NCBI GenBank assembly: GCA_018814355.1
Contig: JAHIZT010000061.1
Location: 1-52,657 of the forward strand
DNA from: Candidatus Thermoplasmatota archaeon
Lineage (GTDB): Archaea; Thermoplasmatota; Thermoplasmata; UBA10834
Direction of reading: 5' to 3'
Length of the DNA stretch: 52,657 nucleotides
This document shows, in pieces, positions 8,954 through 52,657 of this stretch. The translations under genes and the position numbers were made by a program. The notes under the pieces were generated by a model. It saw only the letters and a list, made by a program, of their open reading frames with translations, did not search any database and was not told where the DNA came from. Positions within the stretch are counted from its first letter, which is position 1. Every line of letters begins with the position of its first letter.

Positions 8954-10309
8954 ATGATGGTCGACATGGTAGATCTTGCTGAGAAGGTGGTTCGATACGT
9001 CATGAGGCTCGGGCCGTCCGATTGCGACGTCCTGGTGGCGGATTCCAAGCACGTGTCTGCGGAGATAGAGAAGAGCTCGATGAAACAGGCGAACACGATG
9101 ACCGACCCGGGTGTGGCTGTGAGGGCGTTCAAGGAAGGATGCCCCGGATTCTCCCATTGCACTGGCCATGATTGGCCTTCAGTCAAGAAGGCAGCAGACC
9201 TGGCAGTCTCTCAAGCCAAAGCTGGTACGCCTGATCCGGACTTCCACGGACTCCCGGAGAAGAAGAGACAGTCAAAAGTCAAGGGCCTGTTCGATTCGAA
9301 GGTATCACAGCTCGAGCCGGACGAGATAGTCGGCATGGCCATAACACTGGCGGATTGGGCGGGAGACGACAAGAGGATCTCGTCGGTGAACGCGAGCGTG
9401 GGCGCCGGGTACGGCACGCTCGCATTCGCGAATAGCCGCGGCATCACGGGTTCTCAGAAGTTCTCATCCTTCGATATGAGCTCAGAAGCCGTTGCCAGGT
9501 CAGGTTCCAGAATGTTCTCTGGGGTGGACATGGGGTGGACCCGACAGCTCGATAGGACCCTGTTCGAGAAAGTAGGGAGGAGCGCGATGGAGCACGCCAT
9601 CAGGGGCCTCAAGCAGACGAAGATCGATACTGGCGACCTCCCGGTTGTCTGGGATCCGTTGGCTATCGGTTTCGTCCTCTCGACGGCGATAGGTGGAGGA
9701 GCGAACGCCGAGAGCGTGCAGCGCAAGAGGAGCTATCTTTCCGGCCGCCTTGGAGAGAAGATCGGCTCGGAGTCGCTCACGATCGTCGATGACCCGACTG
9801 TCGATTGGGCCGTCGGAAGCTATGCTTTTGACGGCGAGGGTACTCCCGCCTTCGCCAAGCAATTGGTCGAGAAGGGCGAGCTCAAGTCCTATCTACATGA
9901 CAGTTATACCGCAGGCAAAGACTCGGTCGAGAGCACAGGCAATTCCTCGAGAGGAGGCATCATGTGGAGCTTCAGGAGGCCGCCGTCGATCTCCAGCTCG
10001 AACCTGGTAGTTGCAGAAGGCGACTCCAGCATACAGGAGATGCTTGATGAGACAAGGAAGGGAGTCTATCTGCGCCTGACCTACGACTATCCGAACCTTG
10101 CGACGGGCGAGTTCTCAGGACTCATGATGGAGAGCTTCAGGATCGACAAGGGCGAGCTGGGCGAATCCATCCAACAGGCCACGATTGGAGTCGGCCTGCT
10201 GGAGCTGTTCTCGCGAATAGACATGGTGGGTGACGAATCGAGGGATGTCTTCGGGGTCAAGACGCCTGCCATCAGGATTTCGAAGGCGAAGGTCGCGGGT
10301 TCCCGCTAG
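8954..10309 (+). CDS. tldE: TldE/PmbA subunit of the TldD/TldE protease
   Basis: A 451-residue partner of TldD. It has the same overall fold but no HExxxH zinc motif, as expected for TldE, and closes the active site of the heterodimer. Family features include the GIDMGW-like and TGNSSRG regions and a C-terminal segment with GEFSGLMMESFRID. ATG 8954 has GAGG 6 bases upstream. The TAG stop overlaps head-on with the stop of the minus-strand coiled-coil gene through a shared CTAG at 10306-10309. Confidence 0.9.
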   Translation: MMVDMVDLAEKVVRYVMRLGPSDCDVLVADSKHVSAEIEKSSMKQANTMTDPGVAVRAFKEGCPGFSHCTGHDWPSVKKAADLAVSQAKAGTPDPDFHGLPEKKRQSKVKGLFDSKVSQLEPDEIVGMAITLADWAGDDKRISSVNASVGAGYGTLAFANSRGITGSQKFSSFDMSSEAVARSGSRMFSGVDMGWTRQLDRTLFEKVGRSAMEHAIRGLKQTKIDTGDLPVVWDPLAIGFVLSTAIGGGANAESVQRKRSYLSGRLGEKIGSESLTIVDDPTVDWAVGSYAFDGEGTPAFAKQLVEKGELKSYLHDSYTAGKDSVESTGNSSRGGIMWSFRRPPSISSSNLVVAEGDSSIQEMLDETRKGVYLRLTYDYPNLATGEFSGLMMESFRIDKGELGESIQQATIGVGLLELFSRIDMVGDESRDVFGVKTPAIRISKAKVAGSR

Positions 10310-13300
10310 AATGAGTACTTCTGCCCGCATACCGGGCACTCGCTGGTCCTCTTGGCGCATGAAAGGTGCAGCTGGCCGCCGCATCTGCAGGTGACGATGT
10401 CGAAGCCGGGTTTTATCCTGCCCTGGCATGAGATGCATCTCGTTGTCTCCGATGCTCTGCCGAGCTTGAAAGGCGGGCCCGCGGGGAACACATTGACGCT
10501 GTCCTCTATCTCGAAGGTCTGTGGTCTGCCGTCGAACTGCCTCTTGCTCGTCAGCATCACCTTGATGGGCACGTTGCCGCTCGACTTCGGCACGATCTTG
10601 ACCTTCAGCTGGTGCTCGGCGCTCGGTTTGAGATTAGCGACCATTCCTGCATCGACGACCTCGAAATCCCCGATGACCTCCACCGAGATGTCCTTGGCGA
10701 GGGCCTTCCCTGTGTTCTTGATGTCGATCTTGAGCTCGCTCTCGACCGCCTCCTGAAGGCCTGTCGCCGAAACGCTACCCGTGATGTCTGCCGAGTATGC
10801 CTCCATTAGCTCCTTTGCCGTGTCCAGAGCCTCTGCGACGAGCTCTATCGCGGAGTCGTAATCCTTCTCCTTCTCGATCTCGGCCATCGCGATCAGCCGC
10901 TCGGGCTCCCTTTTGGAGAACCCGTATCTTCCAAGGTTCTCCATGGCGCTCTCAGCGGCTATGGATATGTCCAGGTACTTCTTGTAAGAGTCTTCTAGGC
11001 CCATCGTCTTGCGGTCAGCGTCCATCAGGAGCTGGAACGCCCCCTCGATGTCCTCCTTCTCATGTGCCTTCCTCGCATCTCCCACAATCTTCTCCACCAT
11101 TGTGACCGATGCCCCGAACTTCCTAAGTCCCTCGGTCTTGCCCTGGACATCGTCTATCAGGCTCGAGATCTTCTTGGATATCAGCGAGATGCTGTTGTCC
11201 TTGCATGCGAGTGCCTGCTGGTACGCGAAATCCCAGAGCTTCTCCGAAAACGAAGTGTTCGCCACCTCGAGCAGGTCCTCGGCGGACTTGGTGTTTATCC
11301 CCATGGACTTGGCCTTCGCGATCATCAGCCTGTTCTGCTCCATGATGTTCTTTATGGAGTCCTCGAAGATCGACTCGGCTTTGGCCGTCGCCCGCTTGAG
11401 CGCGTCCCTGCTCTTGGCGAACTCGTGGGCCGTCAGGTAGTCCTGGGCCATGTCAAGCATCTCATCGCACTCTGATGTGTCGATCCGGACCCTCTTGAGC
11501 CTCTCGATGCGTTCCCTCGCCGCGCTCAGTTCGATCCTGCAGCTGTCTAGGTTCTCTCCGATAAGCTGCAGTTCATCGCCGCTCTCTATGGCTGCGGTCA
11601 TCGCATCGACATACTTGCCCTCCGAGAGCAACCTCTCGGCCTTCTCCACGGATTCGGTCAGACGGTCGGTCTTCCTGCCTTCGTCCGCTGCGTCCGAGAG
11701 CTTCCTGCGGGCCATCTCGACCGCTCTGGTGCTGATGTCGCGCTGCAGCTCCGCGCGCTCCATCTCGGTCTCGCACTTCATGGCGAGCTTCAGTGAATCT
11801 TGGTATCTGGTTTCATTGTACGCCTGGGTGCCCTCTGCTACATATCTCTCCGCCATCCCGAGCTGGAGCCCCTGTGAAGCGGACTTCTCGATCCGTTCCT
11901 TCAGTTTCTCGAGCGTTCCCCAGATCCTCGACTTGGTAACCTCGGAGGATGCCTCTGAGGACTTCCTCGCGAGCTCCAGGGCGATGGCGTACTGGTGCCT
12001 CGTGAGCGCCTCGACGGCATGCTCGAGGAATTCGCGTGCGCGTCCGACATCCATGTCCAGGGTCTCGGCATCCTTCAGGTTGTTCCTGGCGACCCTGATC
12101 TCGAGCGCAGCCTGGGAGCTCAGGTTCTTGACATGGTTGATGTCCTCTTTCGCGGAGGCTATGCATCTGAGCGCCTCCACATAGTCTCCTGTCCTTGCGA
12201 GTTCGCCTGCCTTTTCGCTGAGTTTCTCAGGTCCCAGCGTGTCTACTCCAACGTTCCTCGCATCGGTGAGCAGCCTCTGGAGGCTCCTAGTCATTTCGGA
12301 TATGGAGGTGGAGATTGTCCGTCTGGCGAGATCGTCGCATTCCTTGGCCGTGGCGAGGGCTTGGTCGTAGTTCTTCGTTTTCATGAAATCCTTTGCCTTG
12401 CCCAGGAGCTTCGACGCGGCCTCGGCTTCTATCCCGTGCATCTGCGCCAGATCTATGTTCTCCTTCGAGCTCAAGATGAGCCTCGCGGCCAGGTACATTT
12501 CGAGGCTCTTCTCCGTTTCTGCCATCACCTCGTCCAAAAGATTCTCCGCATCGTCGATCCTGCCCTCCGAGAACTTGCTCCGGGCTTGGTCGAGCCTGCG
12601 CACCAGGGAGGTCACGTCAGCCCTGGTCTTGCCGGCCTCGGAGATCAGCTCCTCAGTTCTGCGGATCTTGTCCTTGACCTGGTCGAATCTCCCTATCTCC
12701 TTCTGGAGGGACAGCTTGGTGCCCCGTATGGATTTGAAAGCCTCGCCGAAGTCATGCTCCTCGGCCTTGTGGATGGCCTCTTTGAGCTGTGACTTCGCCT
12801 CGTCTATGTCAATACCGACGGTCTTGGCCTCCTCGAGCGAATCCTTGATCGCCGAGAACTCCGTCTGGACCAGCTTGCTCATCATGTCGTCTGAGCTCTG
12901 GATGATCTCCCTTGCGTGGGCCATAGCGTCCTCATAGACCCTCTTCGAGAGAGCATCATTGGCACGCGTGAGGAGTATCTCGACATCCGAGGGGTCGCCT
13001 TCCATCGACCGAATCATCTCGATCTTCGAGGTCGCGGTCGCGATCAGCTTGTCGCACTCTACCTGGCCTATAGTCTCGATCCTGCGGGTTACCTGTTTCA
13101 GGAGGGCCTGCGCCTTGTCGAACTCCGAAGAGGCGATGTGCTGCCTGGCTTGCGTGATGGTCTCGCTCAGCTCCGAGAGCGCATCATCGCTTGTGTATCC
13201 CTTCACGAACTGGTCGATGTTCTGGAGTCGGTCGCTCATGACCCTTGTCATGGCGGCATTCGCGGCCTCCTTGCTCGATTTCGCCAGGTTGACACTCTCC

Positions 13301-14817
13301 ATCATGTCGTCCTTGGACATGCTGTCGAGCGCCCTCTGTAGGATTCCCTCTGCCTCGGCGATGTCGGCTCCGATCTCCTTTGAGAGTTTCAGGGCCTTGT
13401 CTGCGATGTCGATCTCCTTCATGGTCCTGTCGTATGTCAGCTTCTTTGTTACGGTGAGACCGTTCGAGGTGGCCTCTGCGGTCTTATCGTAGTTCTTGTC
13501 CTCGAAGTTTTTCCTGGCATCCATCAGGATTACTTTGACCTTCGTTGTGTCCGCGCCGAGGTCAGATGCGAACTTCACCGCCTTTGCGAGCTCGACGACA
13601 TCGTCCCTGGCCTCGTAGAACATCTCCAGTGCGGTGTCCACCTCCTTCCAGCTCTGCTCGGCATAGCTCATTGCATCCTCGAACTTCCCGAGCTTCAGGT
13701 TGTCCCTCGCAGTGTTGAGTAGCAGGATGGCCTTGGTCATATCCACGCCGACCTTCTTGGCCAGCACGAACCTGTCTCTGGCTTTCGAGATGACCTCCAG
13801 GACCGAATCGAACTCCGCTCTGTGCATCTTCTCGTGTGCAGTGTTCAGAGCGTGGAGCGCCTCGATGTACTTCTTATCCTTGAGCGCGTTGACTGCCTGG
13901 TCGAGGAGCTGCTGGGGGACTGTGACGTCCTCCTTCGCGTTCTTCATCTTCTTGATCGCTTCCCTCGTTTCCCTGGCGAGATCCTGGAATCTGGTAGTGA
14001 TGGCGCTCTCCCCGTCAGTCTCGGCCTTCTTGGCGTACGAGAGAGATTCCTTGAACTTGAGCGCTGCAAGTGCGGATTTGGATTTGTCAGTGTGTGACTT
14101 GACCCGAGACATGTCCGCCCCTAGCTCTTCCCCGGCCGAGATCAGCTCCTCGGCCTTCGATACGGCGGAATTGACCTGCGACTTCAGGTCCTCCCCAGCG
14201 CCTTCGAGGACCTCCTTGATATCCGTCATGCAGGCTTCGTATTCCTGGGATTCGAGAGCACTCTTCGCCCTGGCCAGCTGGTCGTCGAAGATCGTCACAT
14301 CGTTTCCGAATTCCTTGGCCTGCATGATCGTCTCCTGGGCCTGCGAGAACAACTTGGAGAAGACCTCGTGGAAAGTCCGTTCGGAAGCGTCGTAGGCGCT
14401 CTTGGCGAGCTTCATCGCCCCCTCGAGGTCGTCGGCGACTACTCTCTCCTTGCTCTTCTCGAGCATGTCGTGAGCCGCCTTCGACTCGTTGCCAGTTCCT
14501 TGGACGAGGTTTATGAGTCCATCAACAGAATCAGCGACATCGCCTATCCTTCGCAGGTAGGCTCCCTTGGCCAGCTCCATCCCCTTCCTGGAATGTGCGA
14601 TCGCGGACTGGTAGTCTTTAGAAGCGATCGCCGCCTCGAAATCCCTCTGCGGTTTCTCGACCTCGCTGAGATTGACATCGCTGTCCTTGCATCTCTCCAA
14701 GAACTTCTGAAGAGAGTCATGCTCTTTCTCTGCGACCTCTTTGTTCTTGGTCGCCTCCTTAGCTCTCTCCTCTAGCTGCTTTGCTAATTGGAGGCTCTTC
14801 AGGTAGTTTCCCGCCAA
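10306..14817 (-). CDS. Giant helical-repeat (coiled-coil) protein with CARDB-like domain and C-terminal zinc finger
   Basis: The 1503-residue protein is nearly all helical from residue 1 to about 1345. A unit of about 64 residues recurs roughly 21 times, with a core like LLxxAxxxLxxxxYxxALxxAxxA (examples: LLNTARDNLKLGKFEDAMSY, FLEHAVEALTRHQYAIALEL). These resemble TPR-like hairpins joined by longer helices. Residues about 1360-1450 look like a CARDB-type beta domain (LKIDIKNTGKALAKDISVEV). The last 43 residues hold a RING-like or treble-clef finger: CxxC 1461/1464, CxC 1477/1479, HxxC 1484/1487, CxxC 1494/1497. No signal peptide or membrane segment is seen, so it is probably cytoplasmic. The start is TTG; no in-frame ATG lies before an upstream stop. 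Function unknown. Confidence 0.82.
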   Translation of the reverse strand: MAGNYLKSLQLAKQLEERAKEATKNKEVAEKEHDSLQKFLERCKDSDVNLSEVEKPQRDFEAAIASKDYQSAIAHSRKGMELAKGAYLRRIGDVADSVDGLINLVQGTGNESKAAHDMLEKSKERVVADDLEGAMKLAKSAYDASERTFHEVFSKLFSQAQETIMQAKEFGNDVTIFDDQLARAKSALESQEYEACMTDIKEVLEGAGEDLKSQVNSAVSKAEELISAGEELGADMSRVKSHTDKSKSALAALKFKESLSYAKKAETDGESAITTRFQDLARETREAIKKMKNAKEDVTVPQQLLDQAVNALKDKKYIEALHALNTAHEKMHRAEFDSVLEVISKARDRFVLAKKVGVDMTKAILLLNTARDNLKLGKFEDAMSYAEQSWKEVDTALEMFYEARDDVVELAKAVKFASDLGADTTKVKVILMDARKNFEDKNYDKTAEATSNGLTVTKKLTYDRTMKEIDIADKALKLSKEIGADIAEAEGILQRALDSMSKDDMMESVNLAKSSKEAANAAMTRVMSDRLQNIDQFVKGYTSDDALSELSETITQARQHIASSEFDKAQALLKQVTRRIETIGQVECDKLIATATSKIEMIRSMEGDPSDVEILLTRANDALSKRVYEDAMAHAREIIQSSDDMMSKLVQTEFSAIKDSLEEAKTVGIDIDEAKSQLKEAIHKAEEHDFGEAFKSIRGTKLSLQKEIGRFDQVKDKIRRTEELISEAGKTRADVTSLVRRLDQARSKFSEGRIDDAENLLDEVMAETEKSLEMYLAARLILSSKENIDLAQMHGIEAEAASKLLGKAKDFMKTKNYDQALATAKECDDLARRTISTSISEMTRSLQRLLTDARNVGVDTLGPEKLSEKAGELARTGDYVEALRCIASAKEDINHVKNLSSQAALEIRVARNNLKDAETLDMDVGRAREFLEHAVEALTRHQYAIALELARKSSEASSEVTKSRIWGTLEKLKERIEKSASQGLQLGMAERYVAEGTQAYNETRYQDSLKLAMKCETEMERAELQRDISTRAVEMARRKLSDAADEGRKTDRLTESVEKAERLLSEGKYVDAMTAAIESGDELQLIGENLDSCRIELSAARERIERLKRVRIDTSECDEMLDMAQDYLTAHEFAKSRDALKRATAKAESIFEDSIKNIMEQNRLMIAKAKSMGINTKSAEDLLEVANTSFSEKLWDFAYQQALACKDNSISLISKKISSLIDDVQGKTEGLRKFGASVTMVEKIVGDARKAHEKEDIEGAFQLLMDADRKTMGLEDSYKKYLDISIAAESAMENLGRYGFSKREPERLIAMAEIEKEKDYDSAIELVAEALDTAKELMEAYSADITGSVSATGLQEAVESELKIDIKNTGKALAKDISVEVIGDFEVVDAGMVANLKPSAEHQLKVKIVPKSSGNVPIKVMLTSKRQFDGRPQTFEIEDSVNVFPAGPPFKLGRASETTRCISCQGRIKPGFDIVTCRCGGQLHLSCAKRTSECPVCGQKYSF

Positions 14818-35234: not shown

Positions 35235-35480
35235 ATGAGGGTCAAGGTGAAGCTGTTCGCAGCTTTCAGGGACATTGTGGGAACGAAGGAGGAGGATCTT
35301 GAGCTGAGGGAAGGATCAACCGTCCAAAGCCTGCTCGAGGACTACATTCTCAGGTTCCCGCAGATGGGTCGCTTCAGAGAACACATAATCCTATCCGTGA
35401 ACAAGGAATACGGGGCTCCCAGCAAACTGCTCAAGGATGGAGACGAGGTTTCCTTCTTGCCTCCGGTCAGCGGGGGATGA
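35235..35480 (+). CDS. MoaD/ThiS-like beta-grasp protein (SAMP candidate)
   Basis: This 81-residue ubiquitin-like protein has the MoaD/ThiS pattern (KVKLFAAFRDIVG start, DGDEVSFLPPVSGG end). The C-terminal Gly-Gly is the active tail, adenylated by an E1-like enzyme to carry sulfur for molybdopterin synthesis or tRNA thiolation, or conjugated to proteins as a SAMP. No moaE, thiF or moa gene is nearby, so the role cannot be fixed. ATG 35235 has GGAGGA 6 bases upstream. It overlaps the M14 carboxypeptidase start by ATGA. Confidence 0.88.
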   Translation: MRVKVKLFAAFRDIVGTKEEDLELREGSTVQSLLEDYILRFPQMGRFREHIILSVNKEYGAPSKLLKDGDEVSFLPPVSGG

Positions 35481-37243
35481 ATCCTGCATCGGTGGTGGGC
35501 GACCTGAGAATCGCGGGGTTGTTCTCATGCGTGTTCTGCCTATCCTTGTTGGCCACAGGCATCCAGGTCGCTGCCAGCCCATCAGAATCTCCAGATCCAG
35601 GTCTAACCGACGCAGTGTCGCACGCGCCCGAGGTGCAGGCGACCAACTACGTGTATCTCAACTACACGGAAATCAAGAATCATCTTCTGGCTATCCAATC
35701 AAAGTATCCGGACATATCGAAGGTCTACGATATCGGGAATTCCTGGGAGAAGAACCAAGGGACTGCTGACCGAGACATCTTGGCGATCAAGATATCGGAC
35801 AATGTGGCTGTGGATGAGAACGAGCCGGAGGTGCTGATCGTCGGCTTGCACCACGCCAGGGAGTGGACCACCTCGGAGCTCGCTCTCGCCATCGCGGAGA
35901 ACTTGACTGCTAAGTATCAGAACGATTCGAGATTGAGCTGGCTCGTGGACAACAGGGAGATTTGGATCGTCCCGATCGTCAATCCAGACGGGTTGGACTA
36001 CGCGCTTGAGACTGACCAGTGGTGGCGGAAGAACCGACATTTGAACGGTGATGGGTCCTACGGGGTCGACCTTAACCGGAACTACGGCGGCTCGATGAAC
36101 GGCGATTCTGCCGGGGCATGGGGTGGGGCTGGCTCTTCTCATGTTCCGAGCAACGAAGTCTACTGCGGCCTCGGACCCTTCTCGGAGCCGGAGACGCAAG
36201 CCGTCAGGGACCTGGTCCTGGCGCGCAATTTCACCCTAATGTTGGACTACCACAGCTTCGGTGATTTGGTCATGTGGCCGTGGGGATACAATGCCAACAA
36301 GACCGCGGACGATGCCGATCTTGTGAGGATCGGGAACGAGTTCGCCGCGCTGAACGGATACATCCCCGAGCAGTCCGTTGGGCTGTATCCGACCACGGGT
36401 GACTCCATTGACTGGATGTACGGAGCAGAGGATGTGTACCCGTTCTGTTTCGAAGTGGGCCAGTTGTTCCACCCGACGAGTACGGCCGATGTCTTGGGCA
36501 TAATCGGGGAGAATCTGCCGCCCGCGTATCTCGGGATCGAGATCGCTGGAGACCGGCAGGAGAGGCCCTTCCAGATTGAACACGCTACCGTGTCCGCGCG
36601 GGACTACTCATCGTCCGGCTTCCTAGTGGACGCCAACATAACTGCGGCTAGAGGCGTCGATGTTGTCGCCCTGAGTGTCTTCTATAGCGTCGATGGTGGC
36701 GCCTGGTCCGATGTGGGTATGGCTCGATTGGCTGGAAACGATTCCTACGAGGCAATGATTCCCGCTCAGTCCATCGGCAGCATCGTCGACTACTACATCG
36801 TCGCACACGATGTATCCGGCGTGGAGCTGATGTCTCCGAGGTACGCCCCGTATGAGCTTCACTCATTTCTTGTGACTGCGGGCTCCACACCACCGATAGC
36901 CGAAGCAGGAGACGACCGATCAGTGCTAGTAGGAGAAACAGTCGTACTCGACGGGAGCGGGTCAACGGATGACATCGGCATCGAGAACTACACCTGGACA
37001 TTCACATACAATGGTTCTCCGGTCTCGCTCTACGGTCCGACACCTTCCTTCGAGTTCTGGGTTCCAGGTGTGTACGAGATTGTCCTCAACGTCTCGGACG
37101 CCGCCGGTTTGCACGGTATCGATATGGTGAATGTGACGGTTTCGGGCGAACCGATCCCGGAGTTCGGCTCCTTGCTGGTGCCGACCGTGCTGCTCCTGAT
37201 TCTGGCGGTCGGCCTACGGCGCAGGACGAGCAAAGGTTCTTGA
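35477..37243 (+). CDS. Secreted M14 zinc carboxypeptidase with PKD domain and PEF-type tail
   Basis: The 588-residue exported enzyme removes C-terminal amino acids from peptides. A signal segment spans residues 10-32. The M14 site is complete: zinc ligands His126 and Glu129 (HHAREW), His259 (LDYHSFGD), the DLNRNYGG substrate loop and catalytic Glu326 (CFEVGQLF). A PKD-type beta domain follows (about 475-555; VVLDGSGSTDDIGIENYTW). The end, IPEF at 560-563, then a hydrophobic stretch and RRR, fits archaeosortase processing and surface anchoring. The gene overlaps the MoaD-like gene by 4 bases, an unusual operon partner. It likely feeds peptide-scavenging metabolism (inference). Confidence 0.93.
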   Translation: MNPASVVGDLRIAGLFSCVFCLSLLATGIQVAASPSESPDPGLTDAVSHAPEVQATNYVYLNYTEIKNHLLAIQSKYPDISKVYDIGNSWEKNQGTADRDILAIKISDNVAVDENEPEVLIVGLHHAREWTTSELALAIAENLTAKYQNDSRLSWLVDNREIWIVPIVNPDGLDYALETDQWWRKNRHLNGDGSYGVDLNRNYGGSMNGDSAGAWGGAGSSHVPSNEVYCGLGPFSEPETQAVRDLVLARNFTLMLDYHSFGDLVMWPWGYNANKTADDADLVRIGNEFAALNGYIPEQSVGLYPTTGDSIDWMYGAEDVYPFCFEVGQLFHPTSTADVLGIIGENLPPAYLGIEIAGDRQERPFQIEHATVSARDYSSSGFLVDANITAARGVDVVALSVFYSVDGGAWSDVGMARLAGNDSYEAMIPAQSIGSIVDYYIVAHDVSGVELMSPRYAPYELHSFLVTAGSTPPIAEAGDDRSVLVGETVVLDGSGSTDDIGIENYTWTFTYNGSPVSLYGPTPSFEFWVPGVYEIVLNVSDAAGLHGIDMVNVTVSGEPIPEFGSLLVPTVLLLILAVGLRRRTSKGS

Positions 37244-45050: not shown

Positions 45051-46361
45051 TTGACAGACCACAAGATCGTCCACGACTCCGTCCATGGGAGCATCAGGGT
45101 TGAGGGCGTTTCGCAGTCGTTGCTGGAGGTCCCGGAACTTCAGAGGCTGCACAGCATACACCAGCTCGGTCTTGCATATCTCGTGTATCCAGGTGCGAAC
45201 CACACGAGGTTCGAACACTCGATCGGCACGTTCTCCGTCGCCAGCAGGATATGCTCGTCCCTCGGCATCCAGCGGGAGGAGGCGCTCTTGGTCCAGTGCG
45301 CCGCCCTGTTGCACGATGTCGGCCACCTACCGTATTCGCACACGCTCGAGTTCGTGCTTCACGACCGGTTCAAGATAGACCACGCAGAGATATCCCGACG
45401 GCTTATTAGGGGCGAAGACACGGTCCTGAACGACTCTGACAGGCGAATCCTCGGGAAGTACTCCACCATCCCGGAGACGCTCGAAAGGCACGACATCGAC
45501 CCGAAGGACGTCTCGCGCCTTCTCGAAGGAGGCTCACCTGGTCCCCTGCCGCAGAAGACTCTCGCGAGGGAGAAGGACCAGGCGCACTTCAACTCGAAGA
45601 GGTACTTGTCGCAGATAGTCAGCGGGCCCGTGGACGCCGACCAGCTGGACTACCTCAAGAGGGACGCTCACTACACCGGCGTTGCCTACGGCGTGATAGA
45701 TCTCGACAGGCTCTTCCAGACGATGCAGGTGTTCAACGGCGACCTAGTGGTCGATCGTGGTGGCCTTAGCGCCGTCGAGGGGATGTTGGTGGCGAGGGCG
45801 CTGATGTTCTCATCCGTGTACTTCCACAAGACCGTCAGGATTTCAGAGCTCATGCTGGCCAAAGCGGTCGAGCAGCTGGGCAGGAATGAGATAGACACCA
45901 TACACAGCATGACCGACTACAGCCTGCTGGCCTACATGGTCTCCAAGGGCGGGTACTTCGAGGAGATGGCCACCCTGATCAAGTACCGGAAGCTGTTCAA
46001 GAAGGCCTATGCGGTGCGCACGAGCGAAGTCGACGAGGACGGATGGCGACGCGTGGGAGAACTCGGGATCGTTGGCAAGCGCCGGGTCATCGAGGAGGAC
46101 ATAGCTCGGAGAGCAGGCGTCGACCCGGGTAGCGTGATTATCGATGTCCCTTCAAGCGAGCTGGAGGTGTCCGAACCCAGGATCTCGCTGACCGATGTGA
46201 GGATATTGGACGACGGCCATGTGAAGATGCTGCCGAGGATAAGCTCCATCGCGGCGTCATTGCAGATCCGTAAGGTCCATGAGTGGGCGCTCATGGTCGC
46301 ATGTCCCGCTAAGGAAAAGGACAAGGTGGCGAAAGCCGCTGCGAAGATCCTTGGACCCTAG
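45051..46361 (+). CDS. HD-superfamily phosphohydrolase (SAMHD1/dGTPase-like)
   Basis: The 436-residue protein starts with the family hallmark KIVHDSVHGSIRV, then HTRFEHSIGTFS (His56) and ALLHDVGHLPYSH (His88-Asp89), the metal-binding HD residues, with a third Asp in DADQLDYLKRD. Relatives hydrolyse dNTPs or act on other nucleotides; substrate is not settled. The start is TTG 45051; a TATA-like CAGTTATTAGG about 27 bases before suggests a leaderless gene. The TAG stop overlaps the rtcB stop by CTAG. Confidence 0.88.
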   Translation: MTDHKIVHDSVHGSIRVEGVSQSLLEVPELQRLHSIHQLGLAYLVYPGANHTRFEHSIGTFSVASRICSSLGIQREEALLVQCAALLHDVGHLPYSHTLEFVLHDRFKIDHAEISRRLIRGEDTVLNDSDRRILGKYSTIPETLERHDIDPKDVSRLLEGGSPGPLPQKTLAREKDQAHFNSKRYLSQIVSGPVDADQLDYLKRDAHYTGVAYGVIDLDRLFQTMQVFNGDLVVDRGGLSAVEGMLVARALMFSSVYFHKTVRISELMLAKAVEQLGRNEIDTIHSMTDYSLLAYMVSKGGYFEEMATLIKYRKLFKKAYAVRTSEVDEDGWRRVGELGIVGKRRVIEEDIARRAGVDPGSVIIDVPSSELEVSEPRISLTDVRILDDGHVKMLPRISSIAASLQIRKVHEWALMVACPAKEKDKVAKAAAKILGP

Positions 46362-47794
46362 CCTTTCATGACGCCGAGCGGTTTCAGGCGCGCGACCATC
46401 TTGGATATTCCTGCGCCGTGAGCTATCCTGACGACATCGTCTATGTTCTTGTAGGCACCAGGAGCCTCCTCTACGATACCGTCCTTGGAGGCGGCCTTGA
46501 TGTAGATCCCCCTCCCCTGGAGCATCGATACCACCTCGTTCACGGAGAACTTGCGTGTCGCTGAAGTCCTGGACATCAGCCTGCCCGCCCCGTGGCAGGT
46601 CGACCCGAAGGTCTCCTTCATCGCGTGCGCAGTTCCGACAAGCACGTAGCTCGCCGAACCCATGTCTCCAGGTATCAGGACAGGCTGGCCGACTTCCCTG
46701 TATTTCGCAGGGACCTCTGGACGGCTGCCGTCGAATGCGCGGGTCGCTCCTTTCCTGTGGACGTAGAGCTTCCTCCGCTTGCCCTCGAACTCGTGCTCCT
46801 CCAGCTTGCATATGTTGTGCGCGACGTCGTACACGCAGCTCATGCCCATTTCCTCGGCCTTCCTGCCAAGCGCGCTCTCAAAGGATTCCCGAACCCAGTG
46901 GAGTATCAGCTGCCTGTTCGCCCAGGCGTAGTTCGCCGCCGCGCTCATCGCCTTGAAGCAATCCTGGCCCTCGTTCGAGTTCACAGGGGCACAAGCAAGC
47001 TGCCTGTCCGGGACCGAGATGTTGTACTTCCTTATTGCCTGCTCCATGGTCCTGATGTAGTCGCTCGCTATCTGGTGCCCGCATCCTCTCGAGCCGGAAT
47101 GTATGCTCACCATGATCTGATCCACTGAATGTATCCCCAACGCCTTCGCCGCCTCGAGGTCGAGGATCTTCTCCACCCTCTGAAGCTCAAGAAAGTGATT
47201 GCCTCCTCCGAGCGTGCCGAGCTGAGGTGCACCTCTCTGCTTCGCCTTCGTGTCGACCTTGGAGGGGTCCGCCGTGCTCATCCGCCCGTTCTCCTCGCTC
47301 GAGGCTAGGTCGTCCTCCCAACCATAGCCCTGCTCGACGGCCCATCGGGCCCCGCCTTCCAGAACATCGTCGATTTGGCTGATTGACAATCGGAGCTTGC
47401 CCTTCTCGCCCACTCCAGATGGGACGTTGTTGAAGATAGTATCTATCAGTTTCTTGATGTCCCGCCCGACATCATGGACAGTGAGGTCAGTCCTGACGAG
47501 CTTGACGCCGCAATTGACGTCGTAGCCAATCCCTCCAGGGGATATGATGCCATTGTCCGCATCGAAGGCGGCAACACCTCCTATCGGGAAGCCGTACCCC
47601 CAATGGATGTCGGGCATGGCAAGCGATTTGCCAACGATCCCCGGCAAGCATGCGACATTCGCGGCCTGCTCAGGCGCGTTGTCGCCCTTGACAGACTGGA
47701 TCATCTTGTCGTCGGCGAATATGACGGCTGAAGTCGACATGCAGGGTTTGAACGATCTCGGTATCTCGTACCTGAACTCGTCGATCTTGTTCAT
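46358..47794 (-). CDS. rtcB: RNA-splicing ligase RtcB
   Basis: RtcB joins RNA 2',3'-cyclic phosphate ends to 5'-OH, mainly to seal split tRNA exons in archaea. The 478-residue protein has the metal site Cys95 (YDVNCGVKL), HWGYGFPIGG, and the guanylated His in TCHGAGRLMSR. All key residues are present and, unlike several archaeal RtcB proteins, no intein is inserted. ATG 47794 is preferred; TTG 47812 is possible. A TATA box lies about 50 bases upstream. Transcription is divergent from the zinc-ribbon gene. Confidence 0.95.
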   Translation of the reverse strand: MNKIDEFRYEIPRSFKPCMSTSAVIFADDKMIQSVKGDNAPEQAANVACLPGIVGKSLAMPDIHWGYGFPIGGVAAFDADNGIISPGGIGYDVNCGVKLVRTDLTVHDVGRDIKKLIDTIFNNVPSGVGEKGKLRLSISQIDDVLEGGARWAVEQGYGWEDDLASSEENGRMSTADPSKVDTKAKQRGAPQLGTLGGGNHFLELQRVEKILDLEAAKALGIHSVDQIMVSIHSGSRGCGHQIASDYIRTMEQAIRKYNISVPDRQLACAPVNSNEGQDCFKAMSAAANYAWANRQLILHWVRESFESALGRKAEEMGMSCVYDVAHNICKLEEHEFEGKRRKLYVHRKGATRAFDGSRPEVPAKYREVGQPVLIPGDMGSASYVLVGTAHAMKETFGSTCHGAGRLMSRTSATRKFSVNEVVSMLQGRGIYIKAASKDGIVEEAPGAYKNIDDVVRIAHGAGISKMVARLKPLGVMKG

Positions 47795-47840
47795 CGGCCC
47801 TGTCCATCCCAAGAATACTCACCAAACCGAGCCACATTGT

Positions 47841-47962: not shown

Positions 47963-47973
47963 ACTATATATAT
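47963..47973 (+). promoter_or_regulatory. TATA box of the large zinc-ribbon gene
   Basis: ACTATATATATAGG on the plus strand predicts a start near 47995 and a leader of about 78 bases to TTG 48073. Confidence 0.55.
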
Positions 47974-48072
47974 AGGACCAAACCAATAGCAATACTCAAG
48001 CGACTCCAGTGGCTGGCATCACTAAGGATGGGGCCTGGACTGCTTCGAGATCTCCCCCGAGGTGTTCAGAGT

Positions 48073-51000
48073 TTGACCGAAGAACCTGCGATATACTGCC
48101 CACTATGTGGCAACAAAGTGCCTCCTGGAGTGACCAAGTGTCTTGTCTGCGCGACGGAGCTCCAGAAGGTCATTTCGAGGCGGTCGTTGGACAAGGCTGA
48201 GGCTTCTAAGCCACTTGCCGATTACATCAGGAAGGAGCTTCCAAAGACCGAGTTGCATGCCGCGAAGGTCACATGCCCTCAGTGTGCTCTGGAGCTTCAC
48301 GGGGGCGAGGCGAAGTGCCCGAGATGCGGGATCCCCCTGAAGAGCGAGCAGGACATGCTTGAATGTCCGGAGTGTGGAGCTCTAACTCCTGAGGACGCGA
48401 AGGCATGTCCGAACTGTGGAGTCGGCTTTGAGGATCAGGAGGAAGAAGAAGTCCCTGTACCTGCCCCGCCGCTCCCGGTCAAAGTGGGACCGCCAGAACT
48501 CCTCGAGCCAAAGATACTTCCTCAGGCGCCTACAGAACCCAGACCAGAGGTAGTCACATCGTTGCCGGAGAGAGTCTCTACCACTAGCGGTCTGGGTGCG
48601 GTCAATGGAAGAGGCGCCATCAATGGGACTGGACTGATCAACGGTACCGGTCTGGTGAATGGCACCGGGATGACTAACGGCACCCAAGTCGGGGGGCGAA
48701 TGACGCCCGCCACGAGCAGGCGCGGGTCGTTCCTCACAAGATGGCAGTTCCTCGCGGTCGTTGTAGCTATTGTCATCGTGATCCCCACATTCATATTCCT
48801 TTCCTATTCGGGGCCCTCTGAGGGCCCCACCATTGACGGAAACTTCGGAGATTGGTCCCATACAGACAAGCTAGGGATATATTCGGTCGCCGGTTCCGCC
48901 CCCGTCGACATAGATGAGTGGGCGACTCAGGTGAAAGGTCAGCAGCTCTTCCTGTATTTCCGCGTGCAAGAAGCGCTCATGGGCTCCACAAACGTCGACT
49001 CATTCTACCTGTTCGTCGATTCCGACAACTCACCCAGCACGGGTTATGCCATATCAGGTATCGGTGCGGACTATCTCATGGAGGTGAGCGGCTGGAACGG
49101 CAGCGTTCAGTCGACCTCACTGAGCAGATACGAATCAACTACGGACCAATATCAATATGACTGGAACGCCTGGGTGAAGCTGAATTCGTTCAGCGCGTCC
49201 CTGGGGACGAACCAATTGGAGGCGATGGCCGAAATGCCGGTCGCCCTGAACGGGAATGCCAAGTTCGTTCTGATGTCACAGGACTACCTCTACAGGAACT
49301 CCGTGAGCTATGCAGTCCCGACCGTCGGAGGCGTCCTCGTTGTCGAGCAGTTCATGGGTACGGGGGTTCCGGCCGATGGCATAGTGGCTCGGGCCTCGGG
49401 AGTTGTCATGCTCCGACTTGTTTTCTCCTGCCAGGGCGGTGGCGGCACTGTCCAGAACGTAGCACCGTCGGTATCGGGCGCCGAATTCACTGCCTCCTTC
49501 GAGCAGTTCACGCTAAGACCGGGAGATGAGCACATCTTGGATTTACAGTTCAACACCCTCGCATCCACAGTAGAATCGATGGTCTCGGTATCAGTCGCAC
49601 CAGGCGGTATCACATCAACATTTTCCAGCGTTCAGGTGTTCGGATTCCCTGTCAGGGCGTATGTCGCCTCGGCCCCCGCAGACATCCACGTAGATGGGGC
49701 GTTCGGGGATTGGACGGGCAGGACGAGCATGGACGCTGATTCGACGTCCGTAGGGAACGCTAACATCAACATCAATTCCGTGGGCGCGGTGAACACGACC
49801 AGCTCATCCAGTTTCTACGTGAGCGTGGTTGGAGACATGTGCAGCGGGTCCTATGTACCGTTCATCTTCAGCAAGCCCTCCGGCCCAGGCGGGGGTGGCG
49901 GGGGCATCGTGATCCCTCAGCGGAACACGGGAGAGGACATCCTCAGGGTGTACATCGACAGTGATATGTCGGCTGCAACTGGATATCCCATGTCGCTCTC
50001 CTCCAAGACCATAGGAGCGGATTTCAAGATTGAGGTCATGGGCATCTACGGCAAGATCACATCCAAATCTCTGATGAGCTGCTCTGGAGGCTCATGGGAC
50101 TTGGTTTCTAGCGCCCTTGTCAGCGCAGCTAGCGACGCTCAGCGGCTAGAGCTTCAGGTCTCCTCAGATGCCATTTCCAGTAGTGTATCAATCGACTACG
50201 TCATCGAAACTACCGATTGGAGGGGCAGATCGGATCTCTCGACTTCTGCGCCGCAGGGCACGAGGGCATGGACAATAGACGGCACAACTACCTCGACGGC
50301 TGCGACTGCAATGTCATATCAGAGGAAGCTCTTCTACGACGGCACGAACTTCTGGAGCTTCTACTGGGACGGGACCAACACCGTGTACAAGTACAGCACT
50401 GACTCAGGCGTCACATGGGCCGCCGGGGGGACTGTGTTCAAGGCGGCCGGAGTGAATGAGGCATCGATATGGTGGGATGCATCCAACAGTACAGTCTACG
50501 TCGTCGGAGACACTTCGACAGCCACTGTGACCGTCCGTCTTCAAAAGGGGACCGTCTCGCCCGCGACCCGCGCTATTTCATGGGCCATCTCCGACCAGAC
50601 TCTTGCAGTGTCCTCAAACATCATAGCTGGGAAGAACGCATTCATATCAAGGGATGCATCTGGCTACATCTGGGTCATGTCCTCCAACTTGACCGCTCCA
50701 GCTCCAACTAGGTACGACCTCTCTACCTTCAGGAGTTCTGCGACGGACAGCATAACGAGCTGGCTGTTCGGCGGGAACATGCTGGACACGGATAGCTCCC
50801 AGCCGACGGTCAAGGGCAGCGTGCTGCCTGCGGGCACGGGCACAGACGTATGGGCCGTGTATGGCTACAACGGTATAGTCGCCGCGAGGAAACTGACATC
50901 GGGCGTATGGTCAGCGCAGACGACGATCTATACTGGAGCAACTAATACCAACACAGAAATTGCGCCGCCGTGCGCTGTCGTTGACGGCAACGGCGTCATC

Positions 51001-51492
51001 CATGTCGTGTACGGAAACGACCACGAGCAACCTATCGGAACGTCAAAGCCGTACATCTACTACGTCTACAACACGGGCTCTGGATGGTCGGTCCCTTACA
51101 GGCTTGAGAGTGTTGCGAACAACCTCGGGAACGTTTATCCGACTATATCGGTGGACTCCTCCACAGGAACGGTCTATGCATTCTGGATAGAGACTGATAC
51201 CAACGGAGTCGGCATCACGGTGACGGGCAAGAAGAACACTAGCGGTGCCTGGACGGCCTTGACGCTGTCGGGTCAGACGGCGGGCGCAAAGCAATACCTC
51301 AATTCGATCTACTCCGCCTCGGGAGAACAGTACATCTGCTGGCAGTGGACCCAGAACACTACAAGTCCGATCCAGGTCCTGTTCGACAAGCTACCTGAGT
51401 TCAAGAGCGTCATCATGCCCGTGCTGTTCCTGACGCTGATAGTCGTGGTCGGGATGCATCGGAGGAGAGGCAAGACCCGCAGAGACGTATGA
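48073..51492 (+). CDS. Very large zinc-ribbon, NG-repeat, membrane and surface protein with PEF-type tail
   Basis: A 1139-residue protein built in layers. Three zinc ribbons (CPLCGNK...CLVC; CPQC...CPRCG; CPECG...CPNCG, about residues 8-115) precede a Pro-rich linker and five NG hexads (about 176-204). A membrane helix follows (about 224-245). Beyond it lie two CBM9-like units that start DGNFGDW and DGAFGDW, then long beta-rich stretches resembling sialidase-type repeats. The end is LPEF, a hydrophobic stretch and RRR. So the ribbons would be inside the cell and the bulk outside, both ends anchored. I chose TTG 48073 (GAGGTG 7 bases upstream; MTEEP resembles the start at 51582) over ATG 48028, which lacks a ribosome site. 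Function unknown. Confidence 0.82.
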   Translation: MTEEPAIYCPLCGNKVPPGVTKCLVCATELQKVISRRSLDKAEASKPLADYIRKELPKTELHAAKVTCPQCALELHGGEAKCPRCGIPLKSEQDMLECPECGALTPEDAKACPNCGVGFEDQEEEEVPVPAPPLPVKVGPPELLEPKILPQAPTEPRPEVVTSLPERVSTTSGLGAVNGRGAINGTGLINGTGLVNGTGMTNGTQVGGRMTPATSRRGSFLTRWQFLAVVVAIVIVIPTFIFLSYSGPSEGPTIDGNFGDWSHTDKLGIYSVAGSAPVDIDEWATQVKGQQLFLYFRVQEALMGSTNVDSFYLFVDSDNSPSTGYAISGIGADYLMEVSGWNGSVQSTSLSRYESTTDQYQYDWNAWVKLNSFSASLGTNQLEAMAEMPVALNGNAKFVLMSQDYLYRNSVSYAVPTVGGVLVVEQFMGTGVPADGIVARASGVVMLRLVFSCQGGGGTVQNVAPSVSGAEFTASFEQFTLRPGDEHILDLQFNTLASTVESMVSVSVAPGGITSTFSSVQVFGFPVRAYVASAPADIHVDGAFGDWTGRTSMDADSTSVGNANININSVGAVNTTSSSSFYVSVVGDMCSGSYVPFIFSKPSGPGGGGGGIVIPQRNTGEDILRVYIDSDMSAATGYPMSLSSKTIGADFKIEVMGIYGKITSKSLMSCSGGSWDLVSSALVSAASDAQRLELQVSSDAISSSVSIDYVIETTDWRGRSDLSTSAPQGTRAWTIDGTTTSTAATAMSYQRKLFYDGTNFWSFYWDGTNTVYKYSTDSGVTWAAGGTVFKAAGVNEASIWWDASNSTVYVVGDTSTATVTVRLQKGTVSPATRAISWAISDQTLAVSSNIIAGKNAFISRDASGYIWVMSSNLTAPAPTRYDLSTFRSSATDSITSWLFGGNMLDTDSSQPTVKGSVLPAGTGTDVWAVYGYNGIVAARKLTSGVWSAQTTIYTGATNTNTEIAPPCAVVDGNGVIHVVYGNDHEQPIGTSKPYIYYVYNTGSGWSVPYRLESVANNLGNVYPTISVDSSTGTVYAFWIETDTNGVGITVTGKKNTSGAWTALTLSGQTAGAKQYLNSIYSASGEQYICWQWTQNTTSPIQVLFDKLPEFKSVIMPVLFLTLIVVVGMHRRRGKTRRDV
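48598..48684 (+). repeat. Five NG-rich hexapeptide coding repeats
   Basis: The protein sequence here repeats xNGTGx units: VNGRGA, INGTGL, INGTGL, VNGTGM, TNGTQV. The codons differ between units (AAT/AAC, GGA/GGG/GGC/GGT, ACT/ACC), so the repeat is kept as protein, not as DNA. It joins the cytoplasmic ribbons to the membrane helix. Similar NG-rich linkers occur in zinc-ribbon proteins of some Thermoplasmata (recalled, not searched). Confidence 0.7.
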
Positions 51493-51529
51493 GGTGCCTG
51501 TTATCGCCAGACACGTCTGAGTTCGATTA

Positions 51530-51539
51530 CTTATATAAT
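51530..51539 (+). promoter_or_regulatory. TATA box of the 51582 zinc-ribbon gene
   Basis: CTTATATAAT lies about 48 bases before ATG 51582, giving a leader of about 20 bases with a GGAAGG site. Confidence 0.5.
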
Positions 51540-51581
51540 GGGTAAAACTATTCCTAAGCGATGGAAAGGTAGCGGAAGGAT

Positions 51582-52187
51582 ATGACCGAAGAACCGCACA
51601 AGGATATATTTCTCAGCTGTTTCAAGTGTGGCCGCATAGTCCGCTCGAACGACACTGAATGCCCTAGGTGCGGCCTTCAGTTCGGTCCTGGGACACTGTT
51701 CGAGTGCCCGTTCTGCTGCGGCCTAATCTGGCGCAATGCCACGACATGCACCACGTGCGGCATCGATCTAACCAAATTCTCCGAGAACGTGGAGAAGTCG
51801 AGCTCCGGATTCGATATGGACGAATTCGTGGACAGCATCATCAACACGGAGCTCAAGGAGATGAAGGATTCCATTCGGAGGGTCGCATGCCCTGGCTGCG
51901 GCCTGATGATAAGGGGCGACGAGGACAGGTGCCCAAGATGCGACCTCCCGCTGGAGGAGGCCCAAGTGGATTGCCCTGTCTGCGGAGAGAAGCTGCCGCT
52001 CTCGGCAACCGCGTGCTCCAACTGCCAGGCGGTCTTCGTCGTCACGCCCGGAGGCGCAGACGATGAGGAAGAGGTCGAGGAGGCCATTCTGATAACCGAG
52101 GGTGAACCTAGGCGGAGATCCTCCAAGAAGCCTTCAACCACGAAGAAGAAACCCGCCAAGAAGGCGAAGCCCAAGAAGGCCAAGTAG
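51582..52187 (+). CDS. Multi-zinc-ribbon protein with Lys-rich tail
   Basis: The 201-residue protein has about four CxxC pairs per half: SCFKCG...CPRCG, CPFCCG...CTTCG, then CPGCG...CPRC and CPVCG...CSNC. Each pair of CxxC makes a rubredoxin-like zinc ribbon. An acidic stretch precedes a Lys/Pro-rich tail (KKPSTTKKKPAKKAKPKKAK), which could bind nucleic acid or membrane lipid. It has no signal or membrane segment. The N-terminus MTEEP resembles that of the upstream large protein, and the next gene is a related ribbon protein. Confidence 0.8.
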   Translation: MTEEPHKDIFLSCFKCGRIVRSNDTECPRCGLQFGPGTLFECPFCCGLIWRNATTCTTCGIDLTKFSENVEKSSSGFDMDEFVDSIINTELKEMKDSIRRVACPGCGLMIRGDEDRCPRCDLPLEEAQVDCPVCGEKLPLSATACSNCQAVFVVTPGGADDEEEVEEAILITEGEPRRRSSKKPSTTKKKPAKKAKPKKAK

Positions 52188-52237
52188 AAATAGTCTGGCT
52201 TCTCGTAATAATCGTTTTCTAATGCTGTGCGACAATG

Positions 52238-52247
52238 ATTTAAATAA
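52238..52247 (+). promoter_or_regulatory. TATA box of the 52269 zinc-ribbon gene
   Basis: ATTTAAATAA is centred about 27 bases before ATG 52269, so the transcript is leaderless. This supports ATG 52269 over the in-frame ATG 52254. Confidence 0.6.
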
Positions 52248-52268
52248 CCGTAGTTGCATCTTTGTATC

Positions 52269-52655
52269 ATGGACAAGGAGCCACTGCCAGTCTTCGTTTT
52301 CGGATGCGTCACTTGCGGAAAGACCGTGGCTGGGACAGAGAAGAGTTGCCCAAGGTGTGGCGCTTCGTTCGAGGACGTGAAGTTCGAGTGCCCCTTCTGC
52401 GGGGAGTTGATTTCGCCCATGCAGCGCAGGTGCGAATCCTGCGGAACTGAGTTCTCTGACTTCGCGGAGGGAGTTTCTGAGATGTCGACGGTCGATCTCG
52501 ACAGGGCCGAGACCGTCACTGTTCCGGAATCGGCCGTTGCCGATTCCAAGTCAGCCGACCCTCCCGAAGTCCTGGAGTTCGAGTGCCCGAGCTGCGGGAA
52601 GCCGGTGTCGGAGAACGACACTGAATGCCCCAACTGCGGGGCCAGGTTCGCCTGA
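52269..52655 (+). CDS. Small multi-zinc-ribbon protein
   Basis: The 128-residue protein repeats the CxxC pairs: CVTCGKT...CPRCG, CPFCGE...CESCG and CPSCGK...CPNCG. An acidic linker (EGVSEMSTVDLDRAETVTV) separates the second and third ribbons. It ends at 52655, two bases before the window edge, and is complete. With the two upstream genes it forms a run of three zinc-ribbon genes. No partner or function is evident. Confidence 0.8.
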   Translation: MDKEPLPVFVFGCVTCGKTVAGTEKSCPRCGASFEDVKFECPFCGELISPMQRRCESCGTEFSDFAEGVSEMSTVDLDRAETVTVPESAVADSKSADPPEVLEFECPSCGKPVSENDTECPNCGARFA

Positions 52656-52657
52656 AC

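Follow-up and report, generated by a model that had tools for sequence, protein, structure and literature searches.

A zinc-ribbon surface giant from a Thermoplasmatota archaeon and a candidate family of modular, single-pass surface proteins

We analyzed a 52,657-nucleotide stretch of DNA, hereafter the window, from a Candidatus Thermoplasmatota archaeon of the UBA10834 lineage (GenBank assembly GCA_018814355.1, contig JAHIZT010000061.1). The window is one complete contig (G000:C61) of a genome of 2.06 Mb spread across 135 contigs, and its named relatives are metagenome-assembled genomes (MAGs) of uncultured Thermoplasmatota or Euryarchaeota. Three genes occupy positions 48073-52655 on the plus strand. 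They encode a large, predicted single-pass surface protein with three zinc ribbons, here called the giant, which belongs to a wider family of predicted surface proteins, and two small zinc-ribbon proteins, ZR2 and ZR3. The gene calls made in an initial annotation of the window, including the TTG start at 48073, were all borne out by open reading frames (ORFs) and orthologs. The locus contains the following features:

48073..51492, plus strand: the giant, a predicted single-pass surface protein of 1139 amino acids with a TTG start (ORF, orthologs, conserved TTG)
51582..52187, plus strand: ZR2, 201 amino acids, four ribbons and a lysine-rich tail (ORF, Pfam, orthologs)
52269..52655, plus strand: ZR3, 128 amino acids, three ribbons (ORF, Pfam, NCBIfam)
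47963..47976, plus strand: TATA-like element of the giant, ~100 nt 5′ of the TTG (sequence; 13 loci, by eye)
51530..51539, plus strand: TATA-like element of ZR2 (15/15 loci, by eye)
52238..52246, plus strand: TATA-like element of ZR3 (15/15 loci, by eye)
46358..47812, minus strand: RtcB RNA ligase, divergent neighbor (Pfam RtcB, 2.4e-178)
45051..46361, plus strand: HD-domain hydrolase, conserved neighbor beyond RtcB (Pfam HD and HD_assoc_2)

In 13/13 orthologous loci inspected by eye, the TTG start of the giant follows a purine-rich GGTG-type motif (motif and start lie within 48059-48075 of the window), and on this evidence a longer ATG frame from 48028 was rejected. A TATA-like stretch was likewise seen at a similar place 5′ of the giant in 13 loci. 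The separate promoters proposed for ZR2 and ZR3 correspond to candidate elements recognizable in the sequence. The leader of the giant would be ~75-100 nt, and those of ZR2 and ZR3 shorter.

The N-terminal part of the giant, up to and including its membrane helix, is organized as follows:

48097..48150, plus strand: ribbon 1 (C9-C26; cysteines invariant in 13/13)
48274..48327, plus strand: ribbon 2 (C68-C85; Pfam DZR, invariant cysteines)
48364..48417, plus strand: ribbon 3 (C98-C115; Pfam DZR / Zn_Ribbon_1, invariant cysteines)
48604..48681, plus strand: NG-hexad linker, predicted to be cytoplasmic and disordered (sequence, homologs, model confidence)
48748..48804, plus strand: membrane helix (residues 226-244), N terminus predicted inside (model, hydropathy, charge rule)

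Each ribbon is a CxxC-x10-CxxC unit, and all 12 cysteines are invariant in 13/13 aligned orthologs. The double zinc ribbon family PF12773, with a gathering threshold of 27.3 bits, matched the giant at 39.8 bits, ZR2 at 39.5 bits and ZR3 at 44.2 bits. The spacer of Asn-Gly (NG) hexads and the single helix proposed to lie between ribbons and ectodomain were confirmed by sequence, model and orthologs. The linker contains five NG units, and parts of it are invariant in 13/13 orthologs. Codons for the same residue differed between hexads in 323 of 581 cases across the 13 orthologs, and the repeat is thus old and maintained as protein sequence; recent identical hexad copies were also present in some orthologs. 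The AlphaFold2 model of the giant had a mean predicted local distance difference test score (pLDDT) of 78.9, with values of about 28-36 in the linker and mostly 80-96 in the ectodomain.

We compared these features across 83 ORFs matching the ectodomain, drawn from 76 named loci in Thermoplasmata-type MAGs. A hydrophobic segment precedes the ectodomain in 82 of the 83; the remaining ORF (L094:9354) has no helix at this place and was excluded from the linker and charge counts. Three or more NG dipeptides lie within the 160 residues before the helix in 81/82 homologs, and NG enrichment exceeded that of all 200 shuffles in 78/82. The spacing between NG units was most often 4 (312/784), followed by 6 (217/784), which makes the regular hexad seen in the window one variant of the NG linker. 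At the DNA level, a pattern of three NGxGxx units was found in 30 of 60 genomes, and the reversed control matched twice, within a single genome. Three kinds of NG-bearing ORF among those inspected are not giants but small proteins of secreted appearance, found in G000, G002 and G003, that carry NGNGNG runs; the remaining inspected ORFs showed the linker, a helix and then an IDGxFxDW-type ectodomain start where the locus extends that far.

NG is the fastest-deamidating dipeptide and also favors flexible turns. The linker might accordingly be read as a deamidation timer, in which Asn-Gly would acidify with protein age and so alter docking or release, and the retention of NG while codons drift fits such a role, as does the deamidation rate itself. 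The preference for flexible turns speaks against it, however, and although the repair methyltransferase family PF01135 was detected in 18/19 genomes of the family, it is common overall (45/60 genomes) and occurs in many that lack this linker pattern, so its distribution is uninformative. We consider a timer extremely improbable.

In 82/82 homologs, the 25 residues preceding the helix carry a positive net charge, which exceeds the charge that follows it. KaiC ATPase, tetratricopeptide repeat (TPR), MEDS, SAP and helix-hairpin-helix domains are normally cytoplasmic, and all of these occupy the N-terminal slot in some members of the set. Because the charge rule and the normally cytoplasmic modules agree, the ribbons most likely lie inside the cell and the ectodomain outside, as the initial annotation had it. 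The opposite arrangement, with an N-glycosylated linker and hence the ribbons outside, would draw on the NG[ST] sequons found in 96 of 233 NG units among the window and its nearest relatives (rows 1-34 of the N-terminus alignment), but such sequons made up only 34 of 541 units in the other 48 rows, and neither the charge pattern nor the KaiC, TPR and SAP modules upstream of the linker fit an extracellular location, which we regard as scarcely credible.

Ribbons lie upstream of the linker in 61/82 homologs and are absent in 21. As 81/82 carry the NG units, the linker is the more constant of the two. A Pfam scan of 82 N termini (the window protein included, L144 omitted) gave matches to DZR in 53, TPR_2 in 11 and KaiC in 4. 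On a tree of the ectodomain core with 80 rows, including the window, four changes sufficed to explain the presence of ribbons; this tree omits L144, L157:6288, L094:9354 and one short-core row, was built by a quick method and leaves 23 of 77 inner branches open. In two relatives, L200 (1684-7842) and L146 (3207-9170), a KaiC/MEDS-type ATPase domain precedes the NG linker, and these are possible signaling members of the family. Paralogs of the giant in the family contain arrays recognized by the ZR2 and ZR3 profiles, for example at 115.7 and 98.2 bits in L072, and fused to the chassis of NG linker, helix and ectodomain. At the sequence level this is a fusion-type link between such arrays and the chassis, part of which is explained by generic ribbon similarity. 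The ortholog in genome G007 (L048 6505-9951) carries one in-frame TAG, located at codon 432; pyrrolysine at this codon was rejected, as no PylS above the cut-off was found in 6/6 genomes, G007 among them.

Beyond the helix, the giant consists of these parts:

48817..49329, plus strand: first CBM9-like domain (residues 249-419; model pLDDT 91.0, CBM9 Z 11.9)
49333..49671, plus strand: Ig / alpha-2-macroglobulin-like domain (residues 421-533; Z 9.0, 93 aligned, root-mean-square deviation [rmsd] 2.5 Å)
49675..50250, plus strand: second CBM9-like domain (residues 535-726; Sas6 Z 10.9, 155 aligned, rmsd 3.0 Å)
50251..51408, plus strand: beta-propeller (residues 727-1112) with one Asp-box-like motif (Z up to 31.5; motif)
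51394..51489, plus strand: LPEF motif, second hydrophobic helix (1114-1128) and basic end (13/13 orthologs; model)

Modeled alone, the CBM9-Ig-CBM9 core reached a pLDDT of 91.0 and a predicted template modeling score (pTM) of 0.88. In VIA-align the first domain matched the CBM9 fold with Z 11.9 (145 aligned, rmsd 3.1-3.2 Å), and the second repeated the fold with Z 10.9. The models thus uphold the CBM9-like parts proposed for the outside of the cell. No Pfam match to the CBM9 sequence profile was obtained with the whole giant at E <= 1 or with the ectodomain alone at E <= 0.01, and no credible sequence relative was found among solved structures (best E 0.52). The sialidase-like part predicted earlier was recovered as a strongly supported propeller fold with Z up to 31.5 (338 aligned, rmsd 3.3 Å), and the top Foldseek matches were BT3686 and sialidases; CylK, sialidases, lectins, lyases, glycosidases and WD40 proteins all matched it. 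GH33-type sialidases have a catalytic Arg triad, a Tyr/Glu pair and an Asp. The Asp-box-like motif S.D.G..W is present as a single copy in 12/13 orthologs. Structure alignments covered the window protein with 40 relatives and with 30 relatives. In a Pfam scan of the ectodomains of the window and 34 of the 82 relatives, other members showed FG-GAP, LTD or laminin-G type modules. A phylum-wide search with the ectodomain found it in at least 18 out of 243 genomes, and 13 of the 18 belong to other classes; the first pass scored at most four candidates per genome, which makes these counts lower bounds.

The C-terminal tail contains LPEF or IPEF in 13/13 orthologs, in agreement with the PEF tail described initially. 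The PEF-CTERM profile TIGR03024 did not match the giant at E <= 1, and 3 of 31 members tested matched at E <= 0.01; the Firmicu-CTERM profile (TIGR04145) scored 23.2 bits against a curated cut-off of 50, with weak matches in 22/31 members. Co-occurrence with archaeosortases, suggested as a check, gave a mixed picture: the genome of the window has 2 matches to the archaeosortase-type family PF09721, but only 11/19 family genomes have any. Across 60 genomes the family was matched in 34, and 5 of the 13 aligned PEF-tailed orthologs sit in genomes without a match, which are 65-86% complete.

Gene order was compared in 17 stretches around giants of the same locus from other genomes of the family. 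ZR2 and ZR3 were present in 13/13 stretches reaching past the giant, and RtcB and HD in 15/15 reaching upstream; the other contigs end. The full triple was found in 14/19 family genomes including that of the window, that is, in every genome whose contig permits checking, the remaining 5 being broken contigs, and an order unique to this genome was therefore rejected. As the flanking genes on both sides are also conserved, adjacency is weak evidence of a link. Both sister-family genomes have HD-RtcB-ZR2 followed by the shared downstream genes, with the giant and ZR3 absent from the site. ZR3 orthologs were found in 18/19 family genomes and none in the sister family, where the sole matches were the ribbons of ZR2.

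The initial annotation had suggested reading the three genes as one sensing system, in which the giant would sense the outside and its ribbons pass that state to ZR2 and ZR3. The kept order, the joint absence of the giant and ZR3 at this position in both genomes of the sister family and the fused arrays of the paralogs are consistent with such a system. Against it, the flanking genes are also conserved, ZR2 occurs without the giant and ZR3, and a separate TATA-like element precedes every one of the three genes. We also surveyed 60 other giant loci, the set left after removing 15 hand-listed orthologs of the RtcB locus. A soluble ribbon ORF lay within 1.5 kb of the giant in only 1 of the 60, with 4 far (p = 0.79), and a giant plus a soluble ribbon gene was rejected as a general unit. 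The one near ORF (L122), whose sequence resembles the N terminus of the L104 giant, probably derives from a giant broken by a frameshift. With a conserved neighborhood, a sister-family ZR2 beside RtcB without the other two genes and almost no ribbon genes beside giants elsewhere, a three-gene system reporting an outside state is unsupported beyond adjacency, and we consider it unlikely.

ZR2 has four CxxC ribbons and ZR3 three (Pfam DZR/Zn_ribbon). ZR2 is the most conserved of the trio, with 60-78% identity within the family compared with 44-58% for full-length matches of the giant. Its core is nearly constant, and its last 40 residues hold 13-21 Lys or Arg in 15/15 loci; this lysine-rich end, which we take to resemble the tails of histone H1, is retained in the sister family. 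ZR2 may belong with RtcB, and we infer that it is the older resident of the locus. A wider pairing of RtcB with ribbon genes was rejected, as a search of 30 genomes, which gave 27 RtcB loci (3 genomes without a match), placed the two within ~1.5 kb of each other only in the 2 sister-family loci. ZR3 passes the NCBIfam cut-off for rubre_like_arch, an archaeal rubrerythrin-like domain (42.8 versus 32 bits). A reading of the ribbons as ordinary rubredoxin-like domains is not favored: the matches were to double zinc ribbons, with no rubredoxin family among the Pfam matches listed (for ZR3, the best 25 of 43), although ZR3 does pass the rubrerythrin-like cut-off.

These properties of ZR2 also bear on a reading of the three genes as unrelated neighbors, with the giant an adhesin whose ribbons merely cap its cytoplasmic end, ZR2, together with RtcB, related to RNA or DNA, and ZR3 a ZR2-like duplicate. 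The RtcB-ZR2 adjacency without a giant in 2/2 sister-family genomes, the stronger conservation of ZR2 and its basic end all favor this explanation. The 12 invariant ribbon cysteines of the giant, on the other hand, exceed the needs of a mere cap, and ZR3 is restricted to genomes of the one family in which the giant occupies this locus. We consider the explanation somewhat unlikely.

Taken together, these data point to a Thermoplasmatota-wide family of inside-out surface proteins, modular in build and crossing the membrane once, to which the giant would belong. It would bind a glycan or polymer outside while the ribbons dock a partner inside, and we give this reading as a whole about an even chance. 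Outside, the modeled CBM9-Ig-CBM9 core with an exchangeable module, here the beta-propeller, would most likely bind glycans or a surface polymer. Inside, the flexible Asn-Gly linker would keep the cytoplasmic module, here three ribbons presumably occupied by zinc, away from the membrane, and this module would dock a partner and might carry a signal. At this locus ZR3, and perhaps ZR2 as well, could serve as partners of this kind; ZR2 may instead act on nucleic acid with the neighboring RtcB. We infer that the giant acts as an adhesin or a receptor. Several points weigh against this reading. For the window ectodomain Pfam gave no match at E <= 0.01, so the case for glycan binding comes from the fold, and propellers and CBM9-like folds serve many roles. 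The survey of other giant loci, as noted, seldom placed a soluble ribbon gene nearby. Moreover, the 83 ORFs cannot be counted as independent, since many are orthologs or paralogs that share genomes, and their loci were selected via two peptide patterns within the ectodomain.

A more specific version, in which the proteins are surface-to-cytoplasm tethers peculiar to Thermoplasmatota, would tie a glycan-binding coat protein via the conserved, purposely unstructured Asn-Gly linker to nucleic-acid-related modules (ribbons, SAP, helix-hairpin-helix), with ZR2, through its lysine-rich tail, as the local nucleic-acid adaptor; if true, the cell surface would be physically linked to the nucleoid or the RNA machinery, but we consider this very unlikely. 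For the broader modular family, one archaeal lineage appears to use a single chassis that has exchangeable modules at both ends and, on its cytoplasmic side, the NG linker as the most constant feature. In sequence searches this chassis could also serve as a signature for detecting surface proteins in archaea whose envelopes have hardly been studied.

Elsewhere in the window, positions 10309-14817 (minus strand) hold an ORF of 1503 residues for which Pfam gave no match at E <= 1e-10, positions 35477-37243 (plus strand) encode an M14 zinc carboxypeptidase that also has a PKD domain and is probably a further surface protein, and positions 5938-7491 (plus strand) encode a member of the aromatic amino acid lyase family (E 5e-190). 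The contig closes with 119 bases (52539-52657) that recur unchanged at the start of another contig of this genome, C38. The genes on C38 differ from the conserved downstream neighbors of the locus, and the shared end is probably a fork in the assembly graph.

The giant family is apparently undescribed: a literature search limited to open-licence PMC papers found no description, and the available excerpts of PMC4158269 and PMC9529153 do not treat it. Its overall architecture of ribbon, helix and ectodomain already has precedents in TcaA and, in a form that includes a rhodopsin, in the Znf-heliorhodopsins. TcaA of Staphylococcus aureus, as excerpted, resembles the giant in having an intracellular zinc finger, one membrane span and its bulk outside (PMC10328498). 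It differs in that the excerpted description contains neither an NG linker nor a CBM9-propeller arrangement (PMC10328498), and the TcaA profile NF053815 scored 9.4 bits with the giant and 19.1 bits with ZR3 against a cut-off of 550. The Znf-heliorhodopsins of Thermoplasmatales carry an N-terminal zinc ribbon on a membrane receptor, with a proposed role in signaling or partner recruitment; unlike the giant, they contain a heliorhodopsin and one CxxC-17x-CxxC unit, and the excerpt describes no large ectodomain (PMC8612252). With CBM9 modules the giant shares the fold in both ectodomain copies (Z 11.9 and 10.9) but no Pfam CBM9 match at E <= 1, and with the propellers of sialidases, PLL lectins and CylK it shares the fold (Z up to 31.5) and one Asp-box-like motif, although many propeller families match as well. 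Like PEF-CTERM proteins, it has a PEF motif, a hydrophobic helix and a basic C-terminal end, but no match to TIGR03024 at E <= 1. Proteins joining a ribbon, a membrane segment and an ectodomain have so far been known as single cases, TcaA and the Znf-heliorhodopsins, and the giant family makes the binding partner of the inside end a testable question.

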